Origin: Albibacterium bauzanense
GTDB lineage: Bacteria; Bacteroidota; Bacteroidia; Sphingobacteriales; Sphingobacteriaceae
Length of the DNA stretch: 64,000 nucleotides
Assembly (NCBI RefSeq): GCF_004339765.1
Contig: NZ_SMGO01000002.1
Span: 434,001-498,000 of the forward strand
Reading direction: 5' to 3'
The notes under the pieces are model-generated. The model saw nothing but the letters and a program-made list of their open reading frames with translations. It was not told where the DNA came from and made no database searches. The first letter of the stretch is position 1, and each line of letters starts with the position of its first letter. Made by a program: the position numbers and the translations under genes. This document shows, one piece after another, positions 22,436 to 61,114 of this stretch.

Positions 22436-22502
22436 TCAAACAGTGGTTGAACAGTGGTCAAACAGTGGTTAAACAGTCCTTGAACAGTGGTAAAATGACT
22501 GT
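22436..22502. repeat. 11-bp phased tandem repeat (N-AACAGT units)
   Basis: Successive units TCAAACAGT (partial), GGTTGAACAGT, GGTCAAACAGT, GGTTAAACAGT and CCTTGAACAGT follow with exact 11-bp spacing, then a decayed GGTAAAATGACTGT. The consensus is GGTYRAACAGT. The spacing is close to one helical turn, so the motif recurs on the same DNA face. Related units occur at 60301-60333. Confidence 0.8.
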
Positions 22503-22667
22503 ATAACCTCTGTACATCTTCTGCTTGAATATTGTTTAGGTAATATCAGCTAACAATTTAGATAGTATCAGCTAGCTTGTAAAGTAATTTTAGGAATAGG
22601 AAATGATTTATTAAAAGCAGTTTGTCTTGAAAGAACATTTGTACTTCGATTAATACAGACAAAATAT

Positions 22668-59053: not shown

Positions 59054-60124
59054 ATGAATAACTATACTCTTCCTTCAGAGCAGAACTTTGAGAAATGCTT
59101 TGAAAATTTGAGATCTCATCTTATTATCTTAGAAAATAAGCGAGGGATGGCAGTAGCTTTGAGCGATTTTGGGGCACGGGTAGTTAGTATTTTGGTCCCC
59201 GATAAAGATGGTAAGAAAGTAGACGTAGCTCTGGGCTTTGAAAGCATTGATAAATATGTAAACTCAAATGAACGCTACCACGGTGCTACAATTGGCCGTT
59301 TTGCTAATCGTATAGCAAAGGGTACGTTTATGATTGATGAAAATACCTATCACATTGAGCCAAATAATGGTACCAATGCATTACATGGGGGTAAGATTGG
59401 GTTTCATGAGCGTGTTTGGTCACGCCGTGTAAACAACAGACATCAGGCTGATTTCTATCTGGTTTCTCCCGATGGAGAGGAAGGATTCCCTGGAAACTTA
59501 ACCGTGGTTGTTCAATATTCTTTAACAGATGATAATGAATTGAGAATCCATTATCGTGCTCATACAGATAAAGACACCATTATCAATCTAACCAATCATA
59601 CTTTCTTTAACTTGAATGGTGAGGGAGTTGGATCAATATATAACCATGAAATTTTCATTGATGCCGATAGTTATTTGCCGGTTGATGCTGTTCAGATTCC
59701 AACGGGCGAATTACGACCTTGTAAAGATAGCGCCTTCGATTTCCTATCAACAAAGTCGATCGGAGAACAAATGACCATTCAAGATGAGCAAATAGAGGCA
59801 GCAGATGGATTTGATCATAATTACGTTTTAAACAACACTACCTATCAACTAAAAAAACCTGTGGCGCGCGTATTATCTCCCTTAACCGGTATCCAGATGG
59901 AAGTTTATACCGATCAGCCGGGTATGCAACTTTATACCGGCAATTTCCTTACAGGTAACGATATAGGAAAAAGCGGAAAGCCTTATCTTAAACACGGAGC
60001 AATTTGTTTAGAGACTCAAGCATTTCCAGATGCACCTAATCAGCTAACCTTTCCTAGTTGTTTGCTCAAAGTTGGCGATGTATTTAATTCTGAAACCCGT
60101 TATCGATTTAACGTTGTAAAGTAA
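59054..60124 (+). CDS. galM: Aldose 1-epimerase (galactose mutarotase)
   Basis: A 356-residue beta-sandwich enzyme interconverting alpha and beta anomers of galactose and other aldoses. Catalytic-type motifs: NALHGGKIGFHERVW (His), TNHTFFNLNGEG (His) and CLETQAFPDAPN (Glu). GRFANRIAKGTF and FDHNYVL are also family-typical. Cytoplasmic: no signal peptide. No other gal gene is adjacent. Confidence 0.93.
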   Translation: MNNYTLPSEQNFEKCFENLRSHLIILENKRGMAVALSDFGARVVSILVPDKDGKKVDVALGFESIDKYVNSNERYHGATIGRFANRIAKGTFMIDENTYHIEPNNGTNALHGGKIGFHERVWSRRVNNRHQADFYLVSPDGEEGFPGNLTVVVQYSLTDDNELRIHYRAHTDKDTIINLTNHTFFNLNGEGVGSIYNHEIFIDADSYLPVDAVQIPTGELRPCKDSAFDFLSTKSIGEQMTIQDEQIEAADGFDHNYVLNNTTYQLKKPVARVLSPLTGIQMEVYTDQPGMQLYTGNFLTGNDIGKSGKPYLKHGAICLETQAFPDAPNQLTFPSCLLKVGDVFNSETRYRFNVVK

Positions 60125-60284
60125 TTGAGTTTAATATAAGGCATTAATTACGTATGTCTTTAACATACTTTAACAAGGATGCTAAAATTCCCGTCGTAAT
60201 TTAATTAGTGTATTTATAATTTTATGTTGAAGGCTTATTTCGATATAAGACACATTAAAAATCGTTTTAGTTTTATTTTATTTA

Positions 60285-60382
60285 GACATGATTCTAACAA
60301 GGACCAAACAGGGTTCAAACAGGGACCAGACAGGGGCAATACCCTTGTTTGAACCCTGTTTGAACCTTGTTAGAATCATGTC
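60285..60382. repeat. ~98-nt imperfect palindrome carrying 11-bp phased units
   Basis: The outer 18 bp (60285-60302 against 60365-60382) pair perfectly; the inner arms continue for ~23 bp with two mismatches and one bulge. The left arm holds GGACCAAACAG, GGTTCAAACAG and GGACCAGACAG at 11-bp intervals; the right arm holds TTTGAACCCTG and TTTGAACCTTG, their complements. It lies between convergent galM and comF. No T-run, so termination is uncertain. Confidence 0.75.
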
Positions 60383-60418
60383 TGATTCGAGTACATGATA
60401 ATCAAATCTTAAATGATA

Positions 60419-61114
60419 TTATTTTGTGAATGCCAGGGTGGCAATACTGACTTTTACGCCGGGATTTTTTAAAAGTATGGTTGAGCAGGCTTCAAGAGTT
60501 GCGCCTGTTGTTAATACATCATCCACCAATAAAATATGTTTATCGGTTAAAGATTCCGGATGGTTTAATTGGAAGATGCCTTTCACATTTTCGAAGCGTT
60601 CGGGTCGGCTTCTACTGGTTTGGCTTTCATTATGAGCTACACGAATTAAGTTCTTACAATCGGTTGGAATGTTTAGTGCGTTACTCAGTCCTTTTGCGAA
60701 GTAATCGCTTTGATTATATCCTCTTGATCGCAAGCGTTTTTTATGGAGAGGTACGGGGATAATTAAATCACAAGATTCAAAAGCAGAGGCCTCTTTTAGC
60801 TGCTGGCCATATAACTCTCCTAATAACTCAGCTGTTGCAAAACCATTTTTGTATTTAATCTGATGAATGATTCTTTGAACAATCGAGCCTGAACTGAAAT
60901 GTAGAAAAGCATCAACTTCTTCAATAGCTGCGTGCCCCATCAACTGTCGGGCTGCCAGGTTATCCTTATCCAGATGAAAATGAGTGATCGGTAAATTATA
61001 AATGCAATGCGTACATAAGCGTTTCTCCTGATGTACCAAAGCTTGGTTGCAGCCAGCACATAGCTCGGGGAATAAGAGCGCAAAAGCATCTCTTACAAAC
61101 TGAACGAATTGCAT
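60419..61114 (-). CDS. comF: ComF-family phosphoribosyltransferase-like protein
   Basis: A 231-residue protein. A four-cysteine zinc-finger-like N-terminus (ELCAGCNQALVHQEKRLCTHC) precedes a phosphoribosyltransferase domain with the PRPP loop LVDDVLTTGATLEACS and the KKRLRSRGYNQSDYFAKGLS segment. It is implicated in DNA uptake or recombination-linked ssDNA handling in other bacteria; its reaction is unknown. rlmN follows upstream with an 11-bp gap, same strand. Confidence 0.92.
   Translation of the reverse strand: MQFVQFVRDAFALLFPELCAGCNQALVHQEKRLCTHCIYNLPITHFHLDKDNLAARQLMGHAAIEEVDAFLHFSSGSIVQRIIHQIKYKNGFATAELLGELYGQQLKEASAFESCDLIIPVPLHKKRLRSRGYNQSDYFAKGLSNALNIPTDCKNLIRVAHNESQTSRSRPERFENVKGIFQLNHPESLTDKHILLVDDVLTTGATLEACSTILLKNPGVKVSIATLAFTK

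Follow-up and report, generated by a model that had tools for sequence, protein, structure and literature searches.

BOX elements are modular repeats whose units, of about 45 bp each, stand in a fixed order. Arrays for cooperative binding are exemplified by plasmid parC, with its 11-bp repeats, and by the filaments of excisionases. In the accessible parts of the sources, a REP sequence is a single palindrome of 20-40 bp with a terminal GTAG/CGTC tag (PMC3733652), BOX elements are treated in Streptococcus pneumoniae (PMC3049150), and iteron and operator arrays are treated as arrangements for cooperative binding (PMC7145599). The literature covered, with subscription journals mostly outside it and papers available in part, gave no description of arrays such as those reported below and no paper naming DUF6266.

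How does the present locus compare with these systems? Its kind is that of the small dispersed intergenic repeats; facing arrays with a conserved period and a tie to a gene family that lacks transposase features do not belong to any form that we recognise. The reading that we favour, and whose chances we regard as about even, is that the element in the window (the whole 64-kb stretch of DNA that was analysed) represents a solo copy of a double array whose candidate protein-recognition units are phased to the helix. Such an array would be at home 5' of DUF6266 genes, where its cognate protein would control the promoter, and copies of it would have spread from there.

The element in the window

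The sequence-only reading had described a hairpin of about 98 nt, made of 11-bp units, at 60285-60382. The hairpin is real, and its perfect outer stem is 19 bp long (60284-60302 with 60365-60383), not 18 bp as claimed. All unit cores (ACA[AG] and their complements) fall on an 11-bp grid (Table 1), and the predicted RNA fold of -67.8 kcal/mol (z -10.8) was matched by none of 200 shuffles. Self-matches at lag 11 that score at least 11 occur at only two places in the window, 22439-22488 (24.0) and 60296-60381 (17.5), and scores at lags 9, 10, 12, and 13 never exceed 9.5 there; the threshold of 11 was chosen after the first scores were seen and was also applied to the other lags and regions. A two-unit pattern with up to two mismatches has ten matches in the window against 0.59 expected, eight of them inside the elements at 60284-60383 and 22.4 kb.

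The kinship of the hairpin with the 22.4-kb repeat also stands, both being among the 28 copies of the genome described below. The 22.4-kb repeat had been thought to be without a right arm; a second array is present, degenerate but on the same grid, with CTG(T)-like cores at 22499, 22510, 22521 (CTGC, placed by eye), and 22532 (TTGT).

The site of the window element is convergent, because the 3' ends of both flanking genes face it; the gene on the right is presumably ComF-like. In another genus (G067, L142:1501-1621), an array was seen by eye directly 3' of a comF-like gene, as in the window, which may be chance or an old shared site. The outer 14 nt of the window copy are unlike those of other copies yet perfectly mirrored. 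This suggests local template-directed repair, probably of a quasi-palindrome.

Table 1. Coordinates of the two window copies, of their parts and flanking genes, and loci of the gene cassette discussed in the text
Feature	Position or locus	Strand	Detail
Inverted-array element (GGG subfamily), whole palindrome	60284..60383	.	Covariance-model match G000:C2:494279-494400, 93.8 bits (training copy)
Left array	60297..60333	+	Unit cores ACAA/ACAG at 60297, 60308, 60319, 60330
Stretch between both arrays	60334..60344	.	In the predicted fold, 60325-60342 form the unpaired loop
Right array	60345..60370	-	Inverted unit cores at 60345, 60356, 60367
Outer arm AGACATGATTCTAA	60284..60297	.	Sequence absent from other copies; mirrored perfectly by the right arm
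Flanking aldose 1-epimerase gene	59054..60124	+	3' end toward the element
Flanking phosphoribosyltransferase-domain gene	60419..61114	-	Zinc-ribbon match below cut-off; 3' end toward the element
Second window copy (GTGG subfamily)	22436..22535	.	Right array degenerate; covariance-model match G000:C2:456433-456554, 96.9 bits (training copy)
Strong array of the second copy	22440..22487	+	Five cores 11 bp apart (22440-22484)
Lysis-like cassette loci	L158, L162, L165, L168, L169, L171, L174, L175		Parts variable

Copies in two species of the genus

Are there further copies of the element? The two-unit pattern has 31 matches in the genome of the window (G000), and the reversed pattern has none. With a covariance model, 28 distinct copies were recognised in this genome, the sole congener examined (G001) adding 13, all with E values below 1e-6, and there was one weak match besides. 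The model was trained on 22 copies, which are among the 41 found; 9 copies in the first genome and 10 in the congener are outside the training set. The model requires both facing arrays. A pattern that describes one array, with up to three mismatches, has 93 matches in G000, all within the 28 copies. The congener has 34 such matches, of which 32 fall within its 13 copies.

The sequence-only reading had proposed an intergenic element, dispersed in the genome, whose 11-bp unit is in phase with the helix; this was to be given up if no further copies existed or if their spacing were irregular. The 28 copies lie between genes and are in 11-bp phase, which bears the proposal out. Short unsupported reading frames overlap two of them (L097, L120), and the match edges extend at most 14 bp into a gene end in three others (L112, L117, L123). 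Close beside one copy (L098, G000:C1:505478-505599) there is, by eye, apparently a tRNA-like gene.

When the 41 copies are oriented by their centre (ACAGTCNTTTTACCACTG-like), units stand before it and inverted units after it, the latter degenerate in several copies. The suggestion that the unit array is sometimes turned into a palindrome by inversion is thus not supported, since the 41 copies of the two species have a facing second array. Two subfamilies, AAACAGGG and AAACAGTGG, were assigned by eye in G000. Copies differ in length by whole 11-bp units, and their outer flanks are conserved within subfamilies; no target-site duplication, empty site, or parent transposon was noticed around them. 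Conservation of the bases has one peak in each unit, over the core, while the spacer drifts: a conserved core recurs at each helical turn with a free spacer between. In these 41 copies, the variable dinucleotide of the unit often reads CA, TG, or TA, as though it had decayed from an ancestral CpG; in other genera, TTCGA is kept at that position.

Association with DUF6266 genes

A link with DUF6266 (PF19781) genes was not foreseen in the sequence-only reading. The genome of the window has three such genes, two of them with a copy directly 5' (L100, L119); the third (L176) has no upstream array, and 26 of the 28 copies are not beside DUF6266. The copy at L100 is closest to the GGG set, with a mean identity of 0.63 vs 0.48 to the GTGG set (sets drawn by eye), and the copy at L119 is closest to GTGG (0.58, vs 0.49 to GGG, but 0.57 to the copies of the congener). 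Each dispersed subfamily therefore has a DUF6266-linked member. In the congener, L136 is closest to the other copies of its own genome (0.66).

A strict-unit 11-bp pattern, present in 16 of 201 family genomes and mostly with one match each outside the genus, suggested a genus-restricted element; of the three matches inspected, one (L052) proved to be a genuine array on the 5' side of a DUF6266 gene. This restriction was overturned by covariance-model matches in other genera. The model, with a small bias from two DUF6266-linked copies among its 22 training copies, matches 34 of the 201 family genomes at an E value of 0.1 or better and has no match in 167. Among the 73 model loci listed outside the genus, at least 10 have a listed DUF6266 gene no more than 500 bp away, and all 10 stand on the 5' side of that gene, at a distance of 67-106 bp. 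The number expected is 0.14 under uniform placement, or roughly 1, by estimate, if only intergenic DNA is considered.

What is found when loci are collected by protein? Fifty-nine DUF6266 loci were fetched in this way and 50 were counted, nine having been dropped (eight with an unplaced start codon, one duplicate). The 400 bp upstream of the gene contain an array of lag 11 in 21 loci, of lag 10 in 10, and of either lag in 27, so that an upstream array is absent in 23 of the 50. Downstream of the gene, lag 11 was found in none of the 50 and lag 10 in one; inside the gene neither was found (0/50). Upstream of other genes in the same loci, arrays of lag 10 or 11 occur in 2 of 74 cases.

In the family set, 20 of 29 DUF6266 loci have such an array upstream, against 1 of 59 controls (p 6e-12); these 29 loci come from 27 genomes, all chosen for a covariance-model match, and only one of them (L182) is also among the listed model loci. 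In a set drawn evenly from the phylum, the figures are 7 of 21 loci and 1 of 15 controls, which is not significant (p 0.1). Beyond the family, the association thus rests on the period itself and on a few cases. Lags 9 and 12 were not found upstream of DUF6266 in any locus of the family set (29) or the phylum set (21). The units are wholly different between lineages (for example GTTCGGACATT, CTTCGACTGCG, and CTAACTATATG), and the period is constant.

DUF6266 is present in 88 of the 201 family genomes and in 26 of 395 genomes of the phylum. Four TTCG units in a row, in 11-bp phase, occur in 52 of the 201 family genomes with 792 overlapping matches; with the pattern reversed as a control, there are 22 matches, spread over 14 genomes. 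Genomes with TTCG arrays have DUF6266 in 47 of 52 cases, vs 41 of the 149 others (Fisher 7e-16); within genera the odds ratio is 9.9 (p 3e-6), the species of a genus not being independent of one another. Arrays with a 12-bp period, used as a wrong-spacing control, were found in none of 41 genomes, the genome of the window included, and 18 scattered stretches with this period were found in the named genome collection.

The association has exceptions. Five of the 52 array-positive genomes have no DUF6266 at an E value of 1e-5. A counterexample is G083, which has 175 TTCG-array matches, the most of any genome, and a single DUF6266 gene that is without an array. Two of the G083 arrays, L274 and L281, have a common centre (GCAATCCGTTGCGT). 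In G214, which belongs to another genus than the window, the sole DUF6266 gene has such an array, of which a solo copy stands at C6:346438-346608, with 88.6% identity over 246 bp. This solo copy covers the array, short flanks, and the last bases of the HTH gene only, with no DUF6266 gene.

Layout and neighbours of DUF6266 loci

In many DUF6266 loci, the array is seen by eye to stand 5' of a promoter-like TATGTTTG, which we take to be a promoter motif. Between this box and the 11-bp array, where there is one, a further array of 10-bp period was seen by eye in L161, L163, L165, L174, L175, L183, L184, and L245. The palindrome TACCGGTA, or a close variant, recurs between the box and the ATG of many DUF6266 genes in different genera, for example in L162, L168, L169, L177, and L263.

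Recent duplicates of DUF6266 are found in G093, where they match at 93% over 1.65 kb, and in G007, at 98% over 1.6 kb. In both, the duplicated stretch takes in the gene with its array, a hairpin and a small reading frame on the upstream side, and a short part downstream; in the G093 pair, one array is longer than the other by exactly one 11-bp unit. A comparison of duplicates in G185 gave partial boundaries only.

The recurring neighbours of DUF6266 are HTH_17-like proteins, CHAP or DUF5675 proteins, and small membrane proteins or lipoproteins; the neighbouring CHAP protein has matches of the endolysin type. DUF6266 often stands in a lysis-like cassette of an HTH_17-like gene, one or two DUF6266 genes, and genes for a small membrane protein, a CHAP/DUF5675 endolysin-like protein, and a lipoprotein (Table 1). 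An HTH or endolysin-like neighbour is present in 28 of the 50 counted loci, and arrays occur in 7 of 11 loci with both, 5 of 9 with HTH only, 4 of 8 with endolysin only, and 11 of 22 with neither. With array rates similar whether or not such neighbours are present, the upstream HTH gene is not favoured as a constant partner. Nor did a phage or plasmid home for DUF6266 emerge: there was no tblastn match among phage and plasmid records with one query, and no match among PHROGs with two.

What kind of protein is DUF6266? It has no recognisable transposase features. The model of the L100 protein (pLDDT 88.2) has a glycine-rich N-terminal sheet, which is basic by reading of the alignment, followed by two helices and a C-terminal domain that is FnIII-like. 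Modelled by itself, the N-terminal part has low confidence (pLDDT 69). For the FnIII-like C-terminus, the best Z among the fold-search matches listed is 7.3, within the tool's warning range, and the resemblance in the model may simply reflect a common arrangement.

Alternative explanations

Does the element act as a hairpin? It might serve as RNA or single-stranded DNA, as a terminator, a 3'-end stabiliser, or a cruciform signal, with the repeated unit being incidental. This would account for the strong predicted folds and for the perfect 19-bp outer stem of the window copy, and it is consistent with the gene pairs around the copies, 12 of 28 of which are convergent by reading (p 0.046 against an assumed 25%). 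The enrichment at convergent positions that the sequence-only reading had asked for is thus mild, and a further 12 copies lie between codirectional genes and 4 between divergent ones. The structural covariation that it had also asked for was absent from all three subfamilies. At variable positions, the pairing of each copy's own arms is no better than that of swapped arms (0.608 v 0.626 in 12 copies, 0.561 v 0.581 in 16, and 0.559 v 0.577 in 13; p 0.89-0.93), and positions conserved in both arms pair at 0.95-0.98. Over 22 copies of mixed subfamilies, 67.9% of positions are paired vs 65.1% in shuffles, a small excess that may be due to the pooling of subfamilies whose units differ. Given conserved cores and no better pairing of own arms, the hairpin therefore seems a consequence of two facing sets of sites; judged from the sequences, it looks like a by-product of inverted, binding-site-like units and not a maintained RNA structure. 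Of the protein- or RNA-recognition unit proposed earlier, it is the protein role that would best fit the conservation pattern, the RNA side having found no covariation within subfamilies. The search for an Rfam identity gave no match in the window at gathering score, and the position of many arrays 5' of the promoter-like box also speaks against a hairpin role, which we regard as unlikely.

A parasite of the MITE or REP type, moved by a conventional transposase and without host function, fits other features of the element, and its frequency at DUF6266 promoters would then reflect tolerance or an insertion preference. As is typical of MITEs, the copies are non-coding, numerous, and intergenic, with homologous copies in unrelated flanks. 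Similarity between copies within a genome stops after at most about 230 bp, and among the 28 x 13 cross-species pairs, compared over 5-kb flanks, only one is at an orthologous site, beside what we take to be metK; a further pair (L112/L133) lies near the same genes on opposite sides. The solo copy in G214 and the abundant arrays of G083, none of them DUF6266-linked, point the same way. Against this, the Y1 (PF01797) family of RAYT transposases has no match at an E value of 0.001 in three array-bearing genomes (G000, G001, and G083), which argues against RAYT mobilisation in these genomes; elsewhere there is one partial match in G214, and there are 10 and 9 matches in two genomes without TTCG arrays. 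Moreover, arrays lie 5' and hardly ever 3' of DUF6266, and very different units at the same place in many lineages are a poor fit to the insertion preference of one transposon family. We regard such a parasite as rather unlikely. That the element is a chromosome-organising site, similar to parS or an iteron and read by a nucleoid or partition protein, is very improbable. Iterons phased to the helix and copies on all three large contigs would suit such a site, but the copies are no more evenly spaced along the chromosome than at random (CV 0.79 v 0.90, p 0.23), the unit sequence changes completely between genera, and the TTCG form is missing from 149 of 201 family genomes, a model match from 167.

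A phased array that may control DUF6266

How might a phased double array at a promoter work? Under the favoured reading, the region just upstream of DUF6266 genes would be its home. The two sets of units, which point in opposite directions, would each lie on one face of the DNA, so that a cognate protein could load cooperatively, and the nucleoprotein complex formed in this way would control the DUF6266 promoter. This protein may be DUF6266 itself or an HTH protein encoded in the locus. Copies of the array with only short flanks would then have reached many intergenic sites by transposition or recombination.

A broader proposal, possible but doubtful, is that an undescribed genetic system is made up of DUF6266 genes together with the facing arrays, of 11-bp (and 10-bp) period, that go with them. 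Each lineage would have its own unit at the same helical period, the protein would read its cognate array, and solo arrays would be broadcast through the genome as small mobile regulatory elements of a new class, which do without a conventional transposase; in many genomes, the system would be coupled to the lysis-like cassette of HTH, endolysin-like, and small membrane proteins. If this is true, there is a class of dispersed bacterial repeat that is conserved in helical period rather than in sequence, and its members, each paired with a protein, would offer a natural series for following a possible co-evolution of protein and unit sequence.

For DUF6266, a Pfam family of unknown function, the arrays provide a first handle, namely a testable DNA feature that is 5' of 27 of 50 genes and hardly ever 3'. 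They also account for intergenic palindromes that could otherwise be taken for terminators or ignored.

Comparison with known systems

Similar to REP/BIME sequences and their RAYT transposases, the element exists in many intergenic palindromic copies that are related to the flanks of one gene family and have lineage-specific sequences. The present arrays are 100-250 bp long and made of 11-bp units, whereas a REP is one short palindrome, the partner DUF6266 is not a recognisable transposase, and Y1 matches are lacking at an E value of 0.001 in G000, G001, and G083. ERIC/IRU and other MITE-like repeats (PMC10969869, PMC2229807, PMC2759123) are also dispersed, non-coding, intergenic, imperfect palindromes of 100-250 bp; as far as the accessible parts of these papers go, the internal 11-bp periodicity, the change of copy number by whole units, and the tie to DUF6266 promoters set the present element apart. 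BOX elements resemble it as modular dispersed repeats with a variable number of internal units, and differ in that the units here are 11 bp long and arranged in two facing sets. Iteron and operator arrays likewise repeat a unit in direct orientation once per helical turn, often close to the cognate gene's promoter. The element described here differs from these in having two facing arrays, tens of solo copies on the chromosome, and a cognate protein that is a candidate only.
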